A DNA stretch of 11,630 bases from an uncultured Lachnospiraceae bacterium. GTDB lineage: Bacteria > Bacillota > Clostridia > Lachnospirales > Lachnospiraceae. Position numbers and translations under genes: made by a program. Below the pieces are notes generated by a model, which had not been told where the DNA came from, made no database searches, and saw only the letters and a program-made list of their open reading frames with translations. The DNA lies in the NCBI GenBank assembly GCA_947174725.1, contig CAMWKA010000028.1, forward strand, positions 1 to 11,630, given 5' to 3'. Below, in pieces: positions 178-10,895 of this stretch; the stretch's first letter is position 1; each line of letters opens with the position of its first letter.

Positions 178-2115
178 ATGAGAACATCAAAACGAAAAAT
201 TTATCAAACATTATTTGCGCTATTTCTTATTGTGCTACAGTGTACTATGTCCGTTCATGCGGAGGGGTTAGCACTGCCTGAGCGGTCTGTTCCCGCAGTG
301 GGCCTTGTGCAGTCGGGGGAGTCCGTTTCTGCGACATTGTATCATGAGCATACGCAGAATGCCTGTTGGGAGCAAAAGTGGGTTCCGTGCGGCGGCAGCT
401 GGCGTACTGCTTTTGAAGCTTCTGTGGGAGCTACAGTATTTTATTGTACCAATAATACGAGCAAAGAAATTAGGAATGGCGTAGTGCTGTCGAGTATACA
501 TACCGGATGGTTGTGTGACGAGCACACGGGCATACATGACGGTGAGTATGTCACCAGCTTAACATGCACCCAATCCGTTGTGGGTACATTTACGGTTACA
601 AAGGTATTAACGGAGACGAAAGAATTGGTTGCGAGCGTTTCCCGTCAGGGAACTGGATTGTCCGATGTATCGATTTGCTGGAAGTACCCTGATCAGAGTG
701 TGATTGAAGGGGAGCGGGTGACGATATCGCAGAATGGGATATACCGTGCTACACTTAACTGGAAAGATGCCAAAACAGGAGTTAATCACACGACAACGAT
801 TGATTATGTGGAAATTTCTAATCCGATTATGCTGGTCTTTCAGAGTGGTGACGAGGTGGTTGACGAGATAGAAGTTGCCTATGGTGATCCTTTGCCGGAC
901 ATTGAGATCCCTGTATGGAAAGGTCATGATTTCAAGGGTTATTATGTGGGTATTGTGGACGATGAGAAAACCGCAGATGCCAAGGCATGGTACGATGAGG
1001 AGGGCAATCCCGACAAATCGATAACGCTTACGGAAAGCGCGTTGAAAGAGACGCTTACTGCGAAATGGGAAGCCACTTCCTATCATGTTTATTATGGCAG
1101 AGACAAGGATGGAGACGGAATAGGGGATTTTGAACTTGAGGTAACTTATGATGAAGAATATGGACCGATTGCAATTAATGTGGAACATAAGGACGGTTAT
1201 ATATTTGACGGTTATTATCTGGGTGATGAACAGGTTTTTGATGCGGATGGCAATGCCACGGGTGTCTGGCGTTGGGATGTAGAAGGAGAGATTATATTAG
1301 AAGCAGGTTACCATAAGAAACCGGAATCCTCATCCAATCAAGGAAACCAAGGAGTTCATGAAGACGGGGAGAAAGTGGACGGTGAAGTTGTACCGACAAT
1401 ACCTGATCATATATCAGACAGTTCCGGTTCGGATAATAACATATCAAATAATAGTATATCAGGTAATGATATATCGGGCAACGATTTCTCCGACGATCCA
1501 TTTGATTCCGGACGGGAGAACGCTGGCAGCGGTACAGATAGAGGCAGCCATGGCGGAAATCATGATATGAGTCATGAAGAATATGAAGATGCTGAAGACG
1601 GGGATAGGAAACCGTTTGATGTCAGGATATCTGCGCAATATGATAGCAGCGCATTTGATGCGGATGCAGATGAAAGCATTGTGACGCAGGAGGCGGTTTC
1701 CCATCAATTATCAGAAAATCTGGCGACAAAAGGAACGATGGAGGCTGGGATGCTTTGGAACAGTTCCACGGCTGTCAAAGCTATTGAAGTAACCGGTATT
1801 ACGGCAGGTACCTTGGGTCTGGCATATTTAATTGTCTGGATGATCATAACCAAAGCTTCTCTTGCGGAATTCTATTCTGTCTGTGCTGACGGAAGTAGGC
1901 GCCGTTTGGGGGCAGTATTGATTCTGCATGGTGAAAACGCATTCCATATCCATATCAAAGAACAGATGCTGGAGAAAGGAGAAACCGGAAAGTATCAGAT
2001 ATTATTTAGAAAACAGTTTGCCGTTAAATATGCTAATCAGGATGTGATTATTCACTGTCGGGAAAAAGAGGTTTCGGAAGTGATCAGACCGGAGATTGGT
2101 TTCTATATAGAATAG
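178..2115 (+). CDS. Secreted, membrane-anchored surface protein with InlB/MucBP-like repeats
   Basis: I place the start at the ATG at 178 (645 aa) rather than at 169. AAGGAGG at 162-168 abuts the 169 ATG directly but lies 9 bases from 178. Residues 1-28 look like a signal peptide (MRTSKRK, hydrophobic 12-20, cleavage after VHA). Residues about 55-130 are rich in Cys (63, 71, 90, 113, 130) and His (56, 58, 108, 116, 120). Residues about 218-300 and 302-381 resemble two InlB B-type (Listeria-Bacteroides) beta-grasp repeats; the second contains a calcium-loop-like DKDGDGIGD at 309-317. A Ser/Asn/Asp/Gly-rich stalk (about 385-500) precedes one membrane segment at about 536-558 and an 85-residue C-terminal domain that I do not recognise. 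There is no LPXTG motif, so anchoring is by the membrane segment. The N-terminal part should be outside the cell and the C-terminal domain cytoplasmic by the usual topology. The role may be adhesion or envelope sensing; this is inference. The neighbouring ClpX-like and GGDEF genes suggest a sensory role. Confidence 0.8.
   Translation: MRTSKRKIYQTLFALFLIVLQCTMSVHAEGLALPERSVPAVGLVQSGESVSATLYHEHTQNACWEQKWVPCGGSWRTAFEASVGATVFYCTNNTSKEIRNGVVLSSIHTGWLCDEHTGIHDGEYVTSLTCTQSVVGTFTVTKVLTETKELVASVSRQGTGLSDVSICWKYPDQSVIEGERVTISQNGIYRATLNWKDAKTGVNHTTTIDYVEISNPIMLVFQSGDEVVDEIEVAYGDPLPDIEIPVWKGHDFKGYYVGIVDDEKTADAKAWYDEEGNPDKSITLTESALKETLTAKWEATSYHVYYGRDKDGDGIGDFELEVTYDEEYGPIAINVEHKDGYIFDGYYLGDEQVFDADGNATGVWRWDVEGEIILEAGYHKKPESSSNQGNQGVHEDGEKVDGEVVPTIPDHISDSSGSDNNISNNSISGNDISGNDFSDDPFDSGRENAGSGTDRGSHGGNHDMSHEEYEDAEDGDRKPFDVRISAQYDSSAFDADADESIVTQEAVSHQLSENLATKGTMEAGMLWNSSTAVKAIEVTGITAGTLGLAYLIVWMIITKASLAEFYSVCADGSRRRLGAVLILHGENAFHIHIKEQMLEKGETGKYQILFRKQFAVKYANQDVIIHCREKEVSEVIRPEIGFYIE
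1411..1500 (+). repeat. 15-base tandem repeat encoding ISGND-type stalk units
   Basis: Within the stalk of the surface protein the DNA has a 15-base (5-codon) periodicity. Units starting at 1441, 1456 and 1471 encode ISNNS, ISGND and ISGND, and a decayed unit at 1486 encodes FSDDP. Another ATATCA-led unit at 1411 lies exactly 30 bases before 1441, in the same register. Such in-frame repeats often vary in copy number between strains and change stalk length; that variation is inferred, not seen. Confidence 0.6.
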
Positions 2116-2117
2116 GC

Positions 2118-2146
2118 TTGCGGAGTAGAAGGAAAAAATGTAAAAT
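2118..2146 (+). promoter_or_regulatory. Candidate internal promoter ahead of the ATPase genes
   Basis: TTGCGG at 2118-2123 (3 of 6) and TAAAAT at 2141-2146 (5 of 6) are separated by 17 bases, just after the stop codon of the surface-protein gene. If used, transcription would start near 2153, placing the long hairpin at 2159-2202 at the extreme 5' end of the ATPase mRNA. The -35 match is poor, so this is tentative. Confidence 0.25.
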
Positions 2147-2158
2147 GTATGCGTAGAG

Positions 2159-2202
2159 GATAGATTGAAAAATAAGATCAATATCTTATTTTTCAATCTA
2201 TC
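2159..2202. repeat. Perfect 20-bp inverted repeat with 4-base loop
   Basis: Bases 2159-2178 are the exact reverse complement of 2183-2202, with the loop CAAT between them. The arms are AT-rich. In RNA this makes a 20-bp uninterrupted hairpin between the surface-protein gene and the first ATPase gene. No T-run follows the second arm; the T-rich stretch lies inside it, so it is not a textbook terminator. It could be a 5' mRNA stabiliser, a partial or processing hairpin that uncouples the two genes, or a dyad operator. Confidence 0.9.
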
Positions 2203-2277
2203 GCAGATGAGAAACCACATGTGCGGACTTCTCATTCAGATTTAAGATTCCGCGAAGGGGAATGGTGGAGGCAGAAT

Positions 2278-3741
2278 ATGATCCATATTTTTCGATTGGA
2301 AAGATCTACAAAGGATATTACGGAATACATTATCAAACGCCTTGCTATTGTTTGTGAAGATATCAATGCCAAAGACGCGGAAAGTGTAGCTTACCTTACT
2401 ATCCTGTATCAGCGTGTTCTGGAGGATCGTCGTATTGCTTCCGAAGAACGCAGTCTGATGCATATATTGGATAAAATGGAAGAGGATTTGATGTATGACC
2501 GACGAATCTTTGCGGCGCGGGCGGAGTTTGTTTTGGATTTTCTGGAGGCCGATCTGCTTAGGTGCGCATTGCTGAGCTGTAACAATGAAACAGAGGTGAT
2601 AACTTTAGGTCGGGTACGCTGGCTGAAAAAAACATATTTTTCAGGTGAGAAGGAAGAGAAGTCAGCAGAAAGACTGACGCCTGGAACATTAAAGCAGTAT
2701 TTAGATCAGTATGTGATCGGACAGGAGGCTGCAAAAAAAGCGGTGTCGGTGGCGGTATACCGTCATGATAAGATGGTAAAACATCCAGGAGAAAAATTCG
2801 CCGCCAATGTGGTATTGCTGATTGGACCAAGCGGCTGTGGTAAAACGGAAATCATGAGGAGGATCCAGGAGGTTACGAAGTATCCGGTTGTCTGTACGGA
2901 TGTTTCTTCTCTGGGGGCATCACAGTATCGGGGGAGACATAAAGAGGATCTACTGATTTCGTTATGGGAAAAAGCAGGCAGAAAAAAGGCGGAGGCAGAA
3001 CATGGTATTATATTTATGGATGAATTTGATAAAGTTCTTCGGCCCGTATTTTCTGAGAGGGGCGTTAATGTTCATGATGACGTTCAGTCCCAGCTGCTTA
3101 CTATGTTAGAGGGCAGCGACGTGGAATTGAAAGTCAACGGCAGAGTCTTTACAATGAATACTTCCCATATCTTATTTATATTGGCAGGCGCGTTTCAGGG
3201 CATTGAGGAATGTGTCCGCGAGAGTAAGGTGAAAGAGGAGAAGCAGTCAGGCTTTATTGGATTTAGCAATCCTTTGATGAGTGAGATCGATGTAGGTTTC
3301 AGCAAAGATAATATTACACATGAAGTATTGATGAAATATGGCATGAAACGGGAGTTGGCGGGAAGGATCAGTGAGATTGCCGTATTAAATCCCCTGAAAA
3401 AAGAGGATATGATCAGGATATTGACGGTTCCTAAGGATAATCTGATTGAGAGGTATGCCAGAGAAATCAAGCTTGCGTGTGGAGCAGAATTGATATTTAC
3501 TGAGGAAGCGTTGGAAAAAATAGCGGATATGGCGCTTGCAGAGGAGACAGGAGCACGGGCGCTGCATCAGATCGTGAGGCGGTCTGTCAGACAATGTTTG
3601 TTTGAAGCGCCCGGTTCAAAAGGGATCAGCAGGATCACAATCACAGAAGAAGTTGTATTGGGAGAAAAAAGTCCGGTTCTTTATACGGAGAAAGATAGTG
3701 CGGACTGGAATGTAGGAGAGTGGGATGAGGAGGCTTTTTGA
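2278..3741 (+). CDS. ClpX-like AAA+ unfoldase with atypical N domain (first paralog)
   Basis: The start is ATG at 2278 (487 aa), preceded by GGTGGAGG at 2264-2271 with 6 bases spacing; an in-frame GTG at 2221 lacks such a site. Residues 1-132 are predicted mostly helical and lack the four-cysteine zinc-binding domain of ClpX. From residue 133 the protein follows ClpX closely: LDQYVIGQ entry motif, Walker A GPSGCGKT 183-190, Walker B IIFMDEFDK with D248/E249, sensor-1 region ending LFILAGAF, IGF at 327-329 where ClpX contacts ClpP, arginine-finger motif AGR with R363, and sensor-2 GAR with R427. All ATPase residues are therefore present. The pore-1 loop, GYVG in ClpX, reads QYRG at 216-219 and is followed by RHKED. 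The RKH loop of ClpX is missing. ClpX is about 420 aa, so this is longer at the N terminus. Likely role: ATP-driven unfolding of specific proteins, perhaps with ClpP; substrates are unknown. It is translationally coupled to the next paralog, which it overlaps. Confidence 0.88.
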   Translation: MIHIFRLERSTKDITEYIIKRLAIVCEDINAKDAESVAYLTILYQRVLEDRRIASEERSLMHILDKMEEDLMYDRRIFAARAEFVLDFLEADLLRCALLSCNNETEVITLGRVRWLKKTYFSGEKEEKSAERLTPGTLKQYLDQYVIGQEAAKKAVSVAVYRHDKMVKHPGEKFAANVVLLIGPSGCGKTEIMRRIQEVTKYPVVCTDVSSLGASQYRGRHKEDLLISLWEKAGRKKAEAEHGIIFMDEFDKVLRPVFSERGVNVHDDVQSQLLTMLEGSDVELKVNGRVFTMNTSHILFILAGAFQGIEECVRESKVKEEKQSGFIGFSNPLMSEIDVGFSKDNITHEVLMKYGMKRELAGRISEIAVLNPLKKEDMIRILTVPKDNLIERYAREIKLACGAELIFTEEALEKIADMALAEETGARALHQIVRRSVRQCLFEAPGSKGISRITITEEVVLGEKSPVLYTEKDSADWNVGEWDEEAF

Positions 3742-5287
3742 AAAGTGTAATGATAAGACATATGATCTGTATCTGAAAAGATCCATGGTGTTATACCAGA
3801 AGCAAAACCAACCGTTTACCAATAATATGGTGATCTATGCCTATCTGTCTGTTGTGATCCATTATATATTTGTATCGCGGGATAAAGATGAACAGGTATT
3901 GGAAAGCGTGATGAAGCTCTTGGGTGCTTCCTACAAAGAGGGAGACGGACAGGCACCTTTCTGGACGATATTAAATCGGGAAGCCGAGGAATACACGGAT
4001 GATCTGCTGTTGGTAAATGGTACCAGACTGGAAAAGGTTGTCTCTAATGAGGATATTGATGAATGTTTCGATTTTTTGGAATGGGCGGTGGGACAGGAGC
4101 CTGATGAGGAAAAAAGATATCTGGAGCTTGGGGAGATAGCAGTCAATAAGATCCAGTTTTTTAAGGACGGACGTAAGAGACTGGAAATGAGACGGAGGGA
4201 AGCAAGAGGCGAAAAAGAGAACGATCCCCGCTTCATCAAAAAATGTCAAAGTTTTTTGCAGGAATATACACCGGATCGGATCAAAGCGTATCTTGACCGT
4301 TATGTGATCGGACAGGACGCTGCGAAGATCAGTATCAGTGCAGCGGTTTATAATCATTATCAAAGGATCCTTCATCCGGAAGAAGATCTGGTGAAGTCCA
4401 ATATTATACTGATTGGACCTACCGGCTGTGGTAAGACGGAACTGATCCGCAGGATAGAGGAACTGGTTAACGTTCCTGTGGTGATCTCCGATTTCAGTGG
4501 TATCGTTGCGACCCCATGGAAAGGGAGAAATAAGGAGGAAGCGCTGCTGAATCTATATCTGAAAGCAGATAAGCAGTTAGAAACGGCGGAGCATGGAATT
4601 GTTTTTTTTGATGAGTTTGATAAAATGATACCGGTCAGAAATAGTGGGATGGGACTGGATATCAATCAGGAACTTCAGGGACAGATGCTTGGGATGATGG
4701 AAGGTACGATGATCGATGTTCCATATATGAATGGTTCCGGAAATGACGCAGTGATCCGGATGAATACCAGAGATATCTTATTTATCTGTGCCGGCGCGTT
4801 CGAGGGACTGGAAAAGATCGTCAAAAAAGATCTTCAGAAGGAAGGAAGTCTGGGATTTCACAGCAGCCTGCTTGACCAGTCGGAAATTGAGGTCAGCGAG
4901 GACAATATTAAAGTGAAACATCTGATGGAGTATGGGATGAAACCGGAGCTTGCCGGACGTCTGGGGGCGGTCTCGGTATTGCATGGACTGGATAGGGAAA
5001 TGATGAAAAAGGTTTTGACGGAACCGGAGGACAGCATCATTGCCAGATACCAGAGGGAATTTGATCATGAGAATATCCGGCTGGAATTTACGGAGGAAGC
5101 CATCGATGTTATTGTTGATAAAGTTTCTAAATTAAGTATCGGGGCCAGAGGATTAAATGCCGTCATTCATGAGATTTTAGAAGATGCGTTGTTTGAAGTT
5201 CCCGGTATGGATGGTGTCAGACAGGTAACGATCACCGGTGCCGCAGCGGCGCTGGAGGAAGCGCCGGAGTATACAATAGAGAGGTAG
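3725..5287 (+). CDS. ClpX-like AAA+ unfoldase with atypical N domain (second paralog)
   Basis: The gene begins inside the end of the previous one (17-base overlap), with AGGAG at 3714-3718 six bases ahead of its ATG. The 520-aa product has an N-terminal region of about 180 residues that is helical and acidic, lacks the ClpX zinc ligands and shows no clear similarity to the first paralog's N domain. From about residue 181 it is ClpX-like: LDRYVIGQ, Walker A GPTGCGKT 231-238, Walker B IVFFDEFDK with D296/E297, LFICAGAF sensor-1 region, LGF at 376-378 in the ClpP-docking position, AGR with arginine finger R412, and sensor-2 GARG with R475. The pore-1 loop is PWKG at 264-267, followed by RNKEE, so Trp replaces the usual Tyr and Lys replaces Val. 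The C-terminal two-thirds is clearly homologous to its neighbour, suggesting duplication. The tight coupling makes a mixed hexamer of both proteins plausible, though this is inferred. The cyclase gene starts 9 bases downstream. Confidence 0.88.
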   Translation: MRRLFEKCNDKTYDLYLKRSMVLYQKQNQPFTNNMVIYAYLSVVIHYIFVSRDKDEQVLESVMKLLGASYKEGDGQAPFWTILNREAEEYTDDLLLVNGTRLEKVVSNEDIDECFDFLEWAVGQEPDEEKRYLELGEIAVNKIQFFKDGRKRLEMRRREARGEKENDPRFIKKCQSFLQEYTPDRIKAYLDRYVIGQDAAKISISAAVYNHYQRILHPEEDLVKSNIILIGPTGCGKTELIRRIEELVNVPVVISDFSGIVATPWKGRNKEEALLNLYLKADKQLETAEHGIVFFDEFDKMIPVRNSGMGLDINQELQGQMLGMMEGTMIDVPYMNGSGNDAVIRMNTRDILFICAGAFEGLEKIVKKDLQKEGSLGFHSSLLDQSEIEVSEDNIKVKHLMEYGMKPELAGRLGAVSVLHGLDREMMKKVLTEPEDSIIARYQREFDHENIRLEFTEEAIDVIVDKVSKLSIGARGLNAVIHEILEDALFEVPGMDGVRQVTITGAAAALEEAPEYTIER

Positions 5288-5296
5288 AGGCAAAAG

Positions 5297-6892
5297 ATGG
5301 GAAAATTACAAAAAGCAGTGCTGATCAGGACCGTCGTTCCGATCATGCTGATGGGTATCGTTATTGCGCTCTTTGCAAGCAACCGTTATGAAAAGATGCT
5401 GTATGAACAGATGAAACCGATGTTAAGTATGACAGCGTCTTCTGTGATGGCAGTTTATGACGAACTGTATGAAGGGGATTATGTGCTGAAAGGAGACGGG
5501 CAGTTTTCTCTATATAAGGGAGAGCAGGAACTGACCGGCGATTTTGAGATCATTGACAGGATCTCTGCGGAAGCGGGTGTGGAGATTACTCTATTTTATA
5601 AGGATGCAAGGATCCTGACGACGTTAAAGGATGCAGAAGGCGAGCGGTATGTAGCTACGGGAGTAAATAGCGTTATTTATCGCGCGATAGAAAGAGACCC
5701 CCAAGTCCAATATTATAATGTAGAGATCGATGGTGTGGAATATTATGCCTGTTATGTGCCGATGATGCATTCTGATGGCACTCTGGTCGGTATGATAGGG
5801 GTGGCAAGGCAGTCGGATCAGATTTCAGAGGTGGTACTGAAGACATTGGAACCTATCTGGCTGATCATATTGTTTTGTATGGTTTTGGCAGGATATATCA
5901 GCGTTAATTATACGAAGGGACTGGTAGACGGGATCCAGCATATCCGCGATTTTCTGCAGCGTATGACGCGGGGCGATCTAAATTATATGATGAATAGCAG
6001 GATCTTAAAGAGAGAAGATGAGATCGGTGACGCCGGAAGATCCGTGGTTGCAATGCAGAAGGCAGTCCGTATTCTGGTAGAGCGGGATCCGCTGACCACA
6101 TTATATAACAGACGGTATGGTACGGTAAAATTAAAAAAGATCCAGGCGCAGGCCGCACGATGCGGTCTGTCTTATGCAGTTGCGATGGGGGATATTGATT
6201 ATTTTAAAAAGGTCAATGATACCTTCGGACATGAGGTTGGAGATTCCGTGCTGATACGAGTGGCGGAGCAGCTAAAAAGGGCGGTTGTGGGCAAGGGCTT
6301 TGCCTGCCGCTGGGGCGGTGAGGAGTTTCTGATCGTACTGGAAGGACTTGACCGGAAAGAGGCGATGGAAACGCTGACCCAGATGCTCCAGAATATCCGA
6401 AGTATTGGGATTCCCTGTCAGGGACAGGAGATCAGGGTGACGATGACTATGGGGCTTGTTGATGGGTGCTTATCAGATGATCATGAAGAACTGATCCGTA
6501 TGGCGGATGACAGGCTGTATTATGGAAAGGAACATGGAAGAAACCGGATCGTTACCAATATGGACGAAGATGCAGGGTCATTTGACATGTATGATATGGA
6601 AAATATCAAGGAGATGCTTTCGCAGACGGAGTATGAACTATCAGAAATGTCAAAGGATCTGTATCAGTTCGGAACGGAAGATGTTGCAGAGGCTTTGGAA
6701 TTGCAGCTGATGGACGGGGAGAAAGAAGAAAAAGATCCAATGGAACTGAACCGGATGGTAGAAGAGATCGTCCGTAATATGGCAGAAAAATTCTTCAGAG
6801 AAATTGAGGAAGACGAAGAAGACGGCGCATCGGAATCGGAGGAGACGATGCATGAGGAAGCGAAGGACAAGTCTGGGGAGGAAACCGATTAA
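5297..6892 (+). CDS. Membrane diguanylate cyclase (Cache-HAMP-GGDEF) with acidic C-terminal tail
   Basis: This 531-aa protein should make cyclic di-GMP from two GTP at the inner face of the membrane. Membrane segments lie at about residues 8-26 and 187-205. The extracytoplasmic loop between them resembles a single Cache sensor (VEITLFYKDARILTTL, then IDGVEYYACYVPM and GTLVGMIGVARQ). A HAMP-like linker follows (about 206-262). The GGDEF domain runs from about 264 to 421, with DIDYFKKVNDTFGHEVGD and the active site RWGGEEF (GGEEF 340-344), so it should be catalytically active. The inhibitory RxxD site expected at 331-334 reads VGKG, so classic product feedback is probably absent. Residues about 425-531 form an unusual helical, Glu/Asp-rich extension ending EETD. 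GAGG just before the ATG serves as ribosome binding site. It is the third gene of the ATPase operon; being a substrate or client of the ClpX-like proteins is a possibility, not shown. Confidence 0.9.
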   Translation: MGKLQKAVLIRTVVPIMLMGIVIALFASNRYEKMLYEQMKPMLSMTASSVMAVYDELYEGDYVLKGDGQFSLYKGEQELTGDFEIIDRISAEAGVEITLFYKDARILTTLKDAEGERYVATGVNSVIYRAIERDPQVQYYNVEIDGVEYYACYVPMMHSDGTLVGMIGVARQSDQISEVVLKTLEPIWLIILFCMVLAGYISVNYTKGLVDGIQHIRDFLQRMTRGDLNYMMNSRILKREDEIGDAGRSVVAMQKAVRILVERDPLTTLYNRRYGTVKLKKIQAQAARCGLSYAVAMGDIDYFKKVNDTFGHEVGDSVLIRVAEQLKRAVVGKGFACRWGGEEFLIVLEGLDRKEAMETLTQMLQNIRSIGIPCQGQEIRVTMTMGLVDGCLSDDHEELIRMADDRLYYGKEHGRNRIVTNMDEDAGSFDMYDMENIKEMLSQTEYELSEMSKDLYQFGTEDVAEALELQLMDGEKEEKDPMELNRMVEEIVRNMAEKFFREIEEDEEDGASESEETMHEEAKDKSGEETD

Positions 6893-6981: not shown

Positions 6982-8397
6982 ATGGAACAGGATCAGAACC
7001 TATTACAGGAAGAAACGAAAGAAAATAAAATGGGTACTATGCCGATACCAAGATTATTAACAGGTATGGCATTGCCTATGGTCATATCGATGATGGTACA
7101 GGCATGCTATAATATTGTAGATAGTATTTTTGTGGCAAAGATCAAGGATGATGTTATTGTCAGCGGTTCTGCGGGAACAGCGGCATTGAATGCGGTGGGT
7201 ATGGCATTTCCGGTACAGATGCTGCTGATTGCATTCGGAACGGGAACCTGCGTCGGTGTGAATGCGGTACTTTCCAAGGCACTTGGAGAAAAAGACCAGA
7301 AGACGGCAGATCAGGCGGCGAATAACGGAGTTTTTCTTGCGGTTTGTAATTTCCTACTGTTTCTGATTTTTGGGGTATTTTTTTCGGGGCTTATAATTCG
7401 TATGCAGGGAGGGGAAGGACTGACGCTGACTTATGGCACCCAGTATCTGACGATTGTCTGCGCCTGTTCTTTTGGCGTATATACTCAGTTGATTTTTGAA
7501 CGGTTGCTGCAGGCTACGGGAAGGACGATTTACAGTATGATTACTCAGTTGACAGGCGCGGTGATCAATATTGTGCTGGATCCGATCTTTATTTTTGGTC
7601 TGTTTGGCATGCCGGAGATGAAGGTAGCCGGAGCGGCACTGGCGACAGTGATCGGACAGATCTGTGCAGCGATTCTGGCTGTCATATTAAATGCAAAGAA
7701 GAATACGGATGTTCATGTGAACCTTAGAAGTTTTCGACCAAATTTAAAGATGATAGCAAGGGTTTATCAGGTGGGATTTCCTTCTATCGTCATGCAGGCG
7801 ATTGGTTCTGTCATGACATCCACCATGAACCGTATCCTGTCAGGACTGAATTCGGATTCCGTTGCGGTATTTACCGTATATTTTAAGCTGCAGAGTTTAT
7901 TCTTTATGCCTGTGTTTGGCATCAATAACGGCATGGTGCCGATCCTCGCATATAATTATGGAGCAAGAAAGCGTAAAAGAATGGTGCAGACGATCAAGCT
8001 CAGTATGGTATATGCGTCCCTGTTTATGTTGGTGGGATTTGGGTTGTTTGAATTATTTCCGGAGACACTTCTTCGCATCTTTGATACGGGGGATCCTAGC
8101 TTGATCATCCTCGGCGTTCCTGCGCTTCGGACCATTGGATTTCATTTCCTGGCAGCATGGTTTTGCATCATCAGTGGAACGGTATTTCAGGCACTGGGCA
8201 ATGGCGTTTATAGTCTGCTTGTTTCCGTTGCAAGGCAGCTGGTAGTTTTGATTCCCGTGGCGTATGTCCTGTCAAGGATCGGGGGATTGGATCTGATCTG
8301 GTGGGCATTTCCGATTGCCGAGGTAATGTCGCTTGGCGTATCGGCTTATTTGCTGTTTCGTATCTACCGTAAAATTATCAGACCGATTCCGGCATAG
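6982..8397 (+). CDS. MATE-family multidrug/cation antiporter, MepA-like
   Basis: The 471-aa product is a polytopic membrane protein with about 12 hydrophobic segments, the normal size for the MATE family. These carriers export drugs, dyes or metabolites in exchange for Na+ or H+. Recognisable family signatures are the first helix MALPMVISMMVQACYNIVDS (about 29-48), followed by IFVAKI; the NAVGMAFPVQML segment; the FERLLQATGRT motif; the LDPIFIFGLFGMPEMKVAGAALAT stretch, shown here only in outline; and FMPVFGINNGMVPILAYNYGA in the second half. The MGTMPIPRLL start of the conserved region matches the MepA/VmrA-type clade rather than classical NorM. The chosen ATG has only a weak site (TAGGAA) close to it; an alternative in-frame ATG at 7030 would remove 16 hydrophilic residues without affecting the transporter core. 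The substrate cannot be told from sequence. The gene is 89 bases past the cyclase and probably separately controlled. Confidence 0.93.
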   Translation: MEQDQNLLQEETKENKMGTMPIPRLLTGMALPMVISMMVQACYNIVDSIFVAKIKDDVIVSGSAGTAALNAVGMAFPVQMLLIAFGTGTCVGVNAVLSKALGEKDQKTADQAANNGVFLAVCNFLLFLIFGVFFSGLIIRMQGGEGLTLTYGTQYLTIVCACSFGVYTQLIFERLLQATGRTIYSMITQLTGAVINIVLDPIFIFGLFGMPEMKVAGAALATVIGQICAAILAVILNAKKNTDVHVNLRSFRPNLKMIARVYQVGFPSIVMQAIGSVMTSTMNRILSGLNSDSVAVFTVYFKLQSLFFMPVFGINNGMVPILAYNYGARKRKRMVQTIKLSMVYASLFMLVGFGLFELFPETLLRIFDTGDPSLIILGVPALRTIGFHFLAAWFCIISGTVFQALGNGVYSLLVSVARQLVVLIPVAYVLSRIGGLDLIWWAFPIAEVMSLGVSAYLLFRIYRKIIRPIPA

Positions 8398-10115: not shown

Positions 10116-10895
10116 GTGAAGAAGAAAAAAATTGTTGCACTAGCACTTTGTTTAGGGATGCTCTTTTCTACATCGGTGACATCAGTGGCGGCTGAAACAG
10201 AAATTGGAGAAACAGATGCTTCTATTGAAGTAGAAAGAGATGAGGCATCTGTGAATACTGGTGATCTTCTCAGTCCTGTTGAAGAAGTAGAGGAACAGCT
10301 TGCTGGTCTTTCAGCAGATGAAATTGAAATTGCTATTGAAAAGCTCAACGATGTGGGAGATGAGAGTGGCATTACTCCTTATGCTGTAACATGGAGTTAC
10401 CTTCCGAATTTTACAATGTATAAACAGTCTACAAGTTACTATTGTGTTGTTGCCTCGTGTAAAGCTGCAATGCAGTATTTGACTGGTTCCTCTGATAGTC
10501 AGTCCACTATTGCTTCTGCGTTGGGCACAACTACTTCAGGAACGCCATTTTCTAATGCTAAAACATATTTGAATGATAATCAATCAGAAAATACATATAT
10601 AAGTAAGGCATCCAGCACATCTCAATCGACAATGGCAAGTAATTTCTACAGCGCTATCCATACTTATGATGCGCCAGCACTGATTAGCGTCAAACTTTCT
10701 ACCACTAATGGATGGGCATATAATACAAGTGGACATACTATGTGTATTTACGGTGCAAGAAGTGATAAAGAATATTTTGCCATTGCTGATCCATATATTC
10801 AATGGGTAGACTCGAATGCATCTATGTATTATAGCAAATCAGCAAGTGCGATTCATACCGCTATATCTGATAGAGGAAATGGATATATTTATTAA
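10116..10895 (+). CDS. Secreted C39-like (papain-fold) cysteine peptidase
   Basis: Translation starts at GTG 10116, with GGAGG at 10104-10108 seven bases ahead. The 259-aa precursor has a clear signal peptide (MKKKK, hydrophobic 6-20, cleavage after SVAA at residue 26). An acidic region, about 27-90, may be a propeptide. The rest matches the Peptidase_C39_2-like papain fold: oxyanion Gln at Q104 in YKQSTSYYC, nucleophile C110, His H207 in TSGHTMCIYG and Asp D225 in FAIADPY. The usual CGPAS after the nucleophile is CVVAS here, a mild deviation. It probably cleaves peptides or glycine-type linkages outside the cell, but no ABC transporter or bacteriocin is adjacent, so a bacteriocin-maturation role is not supported. 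The gene is more AT-rich than region A. The lipoprotein gene starts 129 bases downstream. Confidence 0.82.
   Translation: MKKKKIVALALCLGMLFSTSVTSVAAETEIGETDASIEVERDEASVNTGDLLSPVEEVEEQLAGLSADEIEIAIEKLNDVGDESGITPYAVTWSYLPNFTMYKQSTSYYCVVASCKAAMQYLTGSSDSQSTIASALGTTTSGTPFSNAKTYLNDNQSENTYISKASSTSQSTMASNFYSAIHTYDAPALISVKLSTTNGWAYNTSGHTMCIYGARSDKEYFAIADPYIQWVDSNASMYYSKSASAIHTAISDRGNGYIY

Follow-up and report, generated by a model that had tools for sequence, protein, structure and literature searches.

ClpX is commonly regarded as a homo-hexamer in which a zinc-finger domain, together with adaptors, serves to choose the clients. What, then, do two adjoining ClpX-like genes without this zinc finger do directly in front of a gene for a diguanylate cyclase (DGC)? 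This arrangement was found in a stretch of 11,630 nucleotides (the window) from an uncultured Lachnospiraceae bacterium, namely contig C28 of its genome, which is 72.7% complete. Here, the genes for a surface protein (S), the ClpX-like ATPases X1 and X2, and the DGC follow each other in this order on the + strand. On genomic comparison, X1-X2-DGC is a well supported recurring module of one genus of this family, whose members are gut and rumen bacteria. With regard to its function, we tentatively propose, at a confidence somewhat short of even, a dedicated mixed X1:X2 unfoldase of the ClpX type that would be docked to ClpP, inserted in an envelope locus, and set cyclic di-GMP (c-di-GMP) by proteolysis.

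Within 35 genomes of the genus, X2 was found in 31 (in two pieces in one of them, G022) and the N-terminal domain (N-domain) of X1 in the same 31; G013, G014, G023, and G033 carry neither (completeness 94% for G013 and 99% for G014). Synteny was read in 35 sequences, i.e., the window and L057-L090, comprising 31 main loci and four divergent pairs (L086, L088, L089, and L090). With gene starts picked by script, the DGC was located downstream of X2 in all 31 main loci, at a distance of up to 118 bases in 29 of them, 185 bases in L071, and 1,768 bases in L060, where one gene lies between. X1 and X2 abut or overlap in 29/31 main loci (gap of 26 bases in L071, X2 interrupted in L076), S is directly upstream in 21/31 and a MATE transporter gene downstream in 19/31, some loci ending early. 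The cytoplasmic domain of S is encoded in 28 of the 35 genomes, namely 27 of the 31 pair-bearing ones and the pairless G014. Architecture, motifs, co-occurrence, and order are read directly from the sequences; they bear out the initial annotation in its gene order, in the 17-base overlap of X1 and X2, in the 9 bases separating X2 from the DGC, and in its suggestion of a recurring module, since the order recurs in relatives. The ordinary clpX that it proposed to look for elsewhere in the genome is present on contig C22, adjoining the one ClpP found in this genome.

Outside the genus, the module appears to be scarce. In an even sample of 397 genomes of the family, the X2 N-domain profile matched two genomes, both from the pair-bearing genus (represented by three genomes), and none of the 394 genomes of other genera. 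A pattern-based and hence not exhaustive scan of 84,980 species, evaluated for the best 80 of 84 relatives, returned main-type loci in records titled Lachnospiraceae only, plus one titled Bacillota bacterium. Records bearing strain-like names and unmarked as metagenome-assembled genomes (XPB1003, NK4A179, and AB2028) also contain the locus. Among the papers listed from the open-licence PMC literature, in part a capped share of the matches, no description of such a ClpX-like pair or module was found.

Considering that every placeable main locus belongs to one genus, shared ancestry accounts for part of the synteny, and a neutral lineage-specific duplication, with inherited gene order and unrelated jobs of the proteins, had to be weighed. 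We regard it as improbable, as the order was held while X1 and X2 diverged to about 50% identity and insertions nearby in G034 and G009 left X1-X2-DGC intact. In these two genomes, which are covered by sequences L043-L046, S adjoins a further ClpX paralog, X3, and in G034 it is separated from X1 by about ten genes. The last of these before X1 encodes a clostripain-family protease (C11).

The two ATPases comprise the following features:

2278..3741, + strand: X1, ClpX-like AAA+ ATPase of 487 amino acids without zinc finger, with a helix-rich N-domain of its own
2917..2949, + strand: X1 pore-1 loop ASQYRGRHKED
3256..3264, + strand: X1 tripeptide IGF of the ClpP-docking loop
3725..5287, + strand: X2, ClpX-like AAA+ ATPase of 520 amino acids without zinc finger
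3725..4159, + strand: N-domain of X2 (residues 1-145) with eight predicted helices, remotely similar to the all-alpha domain of VirD4/TraG
4508..4540, + strand: X2 pore-1 loop ATPWKGRNKEE
4850..4858, + strand: X2 tripeptide LGF of the ClpP-docking loop

Both proteins have the ClpX-type AAA+ core fold and its catalytic motifs. Against the NCBIfam ClpX model NF003745 they scored 246.1 (X1) and 299.8 bits (X2), both under the cut-off of 359, and against the NCBIfam HslU equivalog 139.3 and 137.4 bits, respectively, likewise under its cut-off of 362.45. The N-terminal C4 zinc finger of ClpX is absent from X1 and X2. Nearly every row of the alignments retains the Walker A, Walker B, sensor-1, arginine-finger, and sensor-2 motifs; the alignments hold 31 X2 (A6, without L076, in which X2 is interrupted, L078, L086, and L089) and 32 X1 (A7, without L083, L086, and L089), each including the two divergent rows L088 and L090; the dropped L083 X1 has a Walker A reading GLTGCGKT. 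The predicted model of X2 (mean predicted local distance difference test score, pLDDT, of 81.1) combines eight helices in residues 1-145 with a ClpX-like AAA part. In most rows the pore-1 loop reads Q[YF]RGRHKED in X1 and PW[KR]GRNKEE in X2 (QYRGRHKED and PWKGRNKEE in the window), as compared with GYVGEDVE in the ClpX of the window genome; the GYVG loop was found in neither X1 nor X2. By this comparison, the pore-1 loops of the pair are shifted to positive charge. The IGF-type loop of ClpX docks ClpP, and replacing its isoleucine abolishes ClpXP proteolysis (PMC12211083). At the corresponding position, 28 of 29 main-locus X2 have [ILM]GF and all 32 X1 rows have [IMF]G[FY]; docking loops being kept, ClpP is presumably used in the main loci.

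The N-domains of X1 and X2 showed no relatedness to each other in our comparison, and sequence searches gave no convincing solved relative for either. In Foldseek and VIA, the entries listed for X2 were ClpX and HslU proteins. Searching the protein collection with the X2 N-domain yielded nine proteins, every one with ClpX-type AAA domains, and the class-wide search added four weak partial matches outside the family (E 1.7e-4 to 8.8e-4); of three inspected by eye, two are VirD4/TraG-like and one is an unrelated-looking AAA protein. A mobile-element origin of the domain was rejected, with 0 matches among 50,697 phage and 72,556 plasmid records at E 1e-3.

The likeness of the X2 N-domain to the all-alpha domain of VirD4/TraG coupling proteins was tested by hhalign. 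Against 30 TraG sequences selected only by PF02534, the X2 N-domain scored 35.0 over 122 columns (probability 32%), compared with at most 17.6 for 40 column shuffles and 13.2 for the reversed alignment. A set of 32 TraG, composed of these 30 and two of six earlier ones, gave 35.3; since the two had been kept after their scores were known, the comparison was repeated using the set of 30 by itself and a set of 36 that included all six earlier ones, the latter scoring 33.4 (shuffles up to 20.2, probability 25%). On the 32-set, eight of eight random half-sets scored 28-40 over much the same region (probability 8-58%) and the reversed X2 query 13.2, with the X2 AAA core against TraG (46.6) as yardstick. 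The first test, alignment A1 against six TraG, was negative (probability 0.6), and a test reaching 77% was discarded as biased, as it included L163 and L164, themselves found by the X2 profile. The X1 N-domain had no such match in the TraG sets (scores of 14.1, 15.1, and 12.1), and no PF02534 coupling-protein ATPase domain was detected in X1 or X2 at E 0.1. In view of the low hhalign probabilities, we consider the resemblance a supported lead, not proof.

A joint function of X1 and X2, in the simplest case as a single ring, is suggested by exceptionless co-occurrence in the genus sample, gene overlap, and persistence without an adjoining cyclase. The last point derives from the divergent pairs L086, L088, and L090, which have none of DGC, S, X3, or an HtrA-type protease as an immediate neighbour; a weak GGDEF match (183 bits) occurs in L090 on the opposite strand about 2.5 kb off, and the L089 sequence is too short to judge. 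The L088 pair stands beside shikimate-pathway-like genes (by eye), and the L086 pair is in reversed order. In a mirror-tree analysis of 15 or 18 loci with L076 left out, which was setting-dependent and is not taken as proof, the residual correlation of X1 and X2 ranged from 0.33 to 0.86 over four settings.

The cyclase that follows the pair is described by two entries:

5297..6892, + strand: DGC with sCache_3_3 sensor, weak HAMP-like linker, GGDEF domain, and acidic C-terminal tail
6314..6328, + strand: DGC active-site motif GGEEF, no RxxD inhibitory site (I-site) upstream

Its GGDEF domain matches PF00990 with E 2e-37, and GGEEF is present in all 31 main-locus DGCs. The RxxD I-site, which is common but not obligatory in DGCs, was found in 0/31, making classical product inhibition unlikely. 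As the pair constantly precedes a cyclase without I-site, turnover of the DGC is the most economical hypothesis for the client. In G007 (L047 2194-4338), an HD-GYP-like protein (by eye) adjoins the DGC, so that enzymes making and degrading c-di-GMP may be encoded next to each other.

Upstream of the pair, the window contains:

178..2115, + strand: S, predicted secreted single-pass membrane protein
1765..1857, + strand: long helix of S, residues 530-560, which should hold the transmembrane segment (predicted model; segment assigned by eye)
1861..2112, + strand: C-terminal domain of S, presumably cytoplasmic, no family match found in sequence searches
2118..2146, + strand: promoter-like TTGCGG-N17-TAAAAT (by eye, unscored)
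2159..2202, no strand: perfect inverted repeat of 44 bases with 20-bp arms and a 4-base loop (z -7.5)

S starts with a signal-peptide-like sequence followed by a Cys/His-rich beta N-domain, an Ig/PKD-like domain, and InlB-type repeats, whose B-repeat fold is present, and continues with a disordered stalk, the transmembrane helix, and a cytoplasmic beta domain of about 85 residues. The mean pLDDT of its predicted model is 69.3, with higher values in the ectodomain. For the cytoplasmic domain, sequence searches gave no convincing solved relative and Pfam weak matches only. Just 3' of the S stop codon, TTGCG(G/C)-N17-TAAAAT was read by eye in the window and in 4/4 close relatives (first hexamer TTGCGC in L076). 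As this promoter-like sequence follows the stop codon, it suggests that S and X1-X2-DGC are separate transcription units. The inverted repeat of the window sits between the promoter-like site and the X1 start; by eye, the same gap holds a different inverted repeat in L057 and a small GC-rich repeat in L058, L059, and L076. In the latter (UBA7480), interruptions occur in both X2 and X3, and only a 3' remnant of S is left; the locus may be decaying or affected by assembly errors.

Relatives carry an HtrA-type protease and X3 upstream of the pair. In the window genome, X3 is located on contig C113, flanked by the genes for an HtrA-type protease and for a subtilase, and has a zinc-finger-like N-terminus; domains of the C113 genes were read from close orthologs in L039, whose X3 reaches 27.1 bits for zf-C4_ClpX at a cut-off of 27. 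A family-wide count of X3 (383 of 397 genomes at E 1e-140) was dropped because it mixed X3 with canonical ClpX, the X3 model scoring the canonical ClpX of the window genome at 489.8 bits; X3 is therefore claimed only at loci whose neighbourhood was read.

A locus that combines S with HtrA and ClpX-type genes recalls regulated intramembrane proteolysis as in RsgI. HtrA, a candidate site-1 protease, would cut the ectodomain of S, a site-2 protease would free its tail, and X1-X2-ClpP would degrade it. The predicted topology of S may suit such a cascade, and in Clostridium thermocellum ClpXP degrades released RsgI fragments (PMC12203970). Against it stand the four of 31 pair-bearing genomes in which S was not found, S without the pair in G014, and that no regulator is known to bind the S tail here. 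A cascade of this kind, with ClpXP ending the signal, would be unlikely as the function of the locus, and we treat it as a serious rival.

Seven loci of other genera (L151-L157), chosen from the strongest matches and complete genomes of the family-wide X3 search, have X3 but neither DGC nor S nor X1-X2; four of them contain HtrA and five a subtilase match as a neighbour of X3. Several of these loci lie near polysaccharide-type genes (by eye). They would be in line with X1 and X2 serving envelope quality control together with HtrA and X3, clearing failed secreted or surface proteins, with the DGC as a merely co-expressed neighbour. The divergent pairs without adjoining DGC and the four genomes without detected S also fit this explanation, which is opposed by the DGC following the pair in every main locus, mostly at short distance. 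On balance, quality control is a possible function, though on the unlikely side.

The order in G014 is HtrA-X3-S-DGC-MATE and in G013 HtrA-X3-DGC, both without X1-X2. A tree of X3 and HtrA rooted on four other genera groups G013 with G014 (93.9/95) and places them next to the pair-bearing loci (91.1/91), 22 of which were included; it covers 28 of 33 X3 rows, leaving out L071, L077, and three outgroup rows. As these two pairless species branch beside pair-bearing ones, the pair probably entered an older locus by insertion between its S and DGC genes. An early loss of the pair is kept as the alternative, since L071 and L077 carry the pair and have unsettled positions in the X3 tree. The interpretation in the initial annotation holds in part. 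Its module recurs at genus level; S, counted there as a member of the same unit, may be transcribed on its own, X1-X2 and the cyclase, taken as a single unit, occur apart in both directions (L086, L088, and L090; G013 and G014), and the locus described as four genes has at least two further members, HtrA and X3.

Based on these data, X1 and X2 would be co-translated subunits, most likely of a mixed X1:X2 hexamer that docks on housekeeping ClpP via IGF loops and in which the new N-domains take the zinc finger's place as substrate-recruiting parts. Inserted into the older envelope locus of HtrA, X3, S, and DGC, the ring would most likely unfold a membrane-linked product of this locus, either the DGC or the cytoplasmic tail of S after its release, and proteolysis would thereby set c-di-GMP output. 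The mixed ring, its use of ClpP, the client, and the direction of control are what we infer, and the link of an envelope signal to c-di-GMP through unfolding is put forward as a hypothesis.

Several observations weigh against this proposal. The mixed ring is deduced from the pairing, with two homo-hexamers as the alternative. G013 and G014 lack the pair but retain the DGC. The acidic DGC tail, considered as a pair-specific degron, was rejected because the DGC of the pairless G014 has the same tail. After regressing out both X3 and HtrA, the mirror-tree correlation was -0.001 for X1-DGC and 0.28 for X2-DGC. Concerning the VirD4-like recruiting domain, the hhalign probability is 25-35% on full TraG sets, removal of the three best TraG from the 32-set lowered the score to 30.2 (probability 12%), and four TraG of another subtype alone gave no match. 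Of 21 pair-bearing genomes, five have a single ClpP match (PF00574), among them G004 (99% complete) and G012 (92%), and 16 have two to five, so that the partner could be any of several candidates. The docking tripeptide is missing in X2 of L077 (DSF) and in both divergent X2 (TSF and GSF in L088 and L090); thus, ClpP use need not apply to every pair. Together with the lost zinc finger and the altered pore loops, this would suit ClpP-independent remodellers, e.g., of the DGC or of S assembly, a function which we consider doubtful given the tripeptide kept in nearly all main-locus X2 and all X1 rows, within loops of differing flanks. A more elaborate form of our proposal has a low probability as well. 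It envisages a heteromeric X1:X2 machine with a coupling-protein-derived recruiting domain in one subunit and re-charged pores in both, which in one genus has come to stand between a feedback-blind DGC and a surface receptor and would set c-di-GMP by targeted destruction of the DGC or its regulator.

The remaining part of the window contains, besides the often but not always neighbouring transporter, a secreted-looking papain-like cysteine protease (Peptidase_C39_2) at 10116-10895:

6982..8397, + strand: MATE-family transporter

If our proposal holds true, the two ClpX-like proteins with their new N-domains, one of which resembles a recruiting domain from conjugation, would illustrate the way in which a Clp machine acquires a new client range and provide a case of a mixed Clp ring in bacteria, and a cyclase lacking the I-site beside a dedicated unfoldase would offer a testable case of c-di-GMP control by protein turnover. 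In comparison with ClpX acting with ClpP, X1 and X2 share the AAA+ core fold, the Walker A/B, sensor, and arginine-finger motifs, and the IGF-type loop, but differ by the missing C4 zinc finger, their own helical N-domains, the changed pore loop, the pairing of their genes, and scores below the NCBIfam cut-offs. Multiple ClpX genes in one genome are already known from Myxococcus xanthus, where the paralogs have diverged roles; the extra copies are isolated there (PMC11423568), whereas X1 and X2 overlap or abut and precede a cyclase. ClpI of Actinomycetota is likewise a distinct lineage-specific class of Clp unfoldase recognised by bioinformatics, but belongs to another Clp class and another lineage (PMC10149685). 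RsgI of C. thermocellum resembles S as a single-pass protein with extracellular sensor and cytoplasmic part and is finally degraded by ClpXP; its topology is opposite (PMC12203970), and here the neighbour is a cyclase, with no sigma factor among the neighbours read. Finally, the all-alpha domain of VirD4/TraG, which takes part in substrate recruitment by coupling proteins (PMC7434980 and PMC12624023), has remote profile similarity to the X2 N-domain, whereas the latter forms the N-terminal extension of a ClpX-type ATPase instead of accompanying a coupling-protein ATPase domain.

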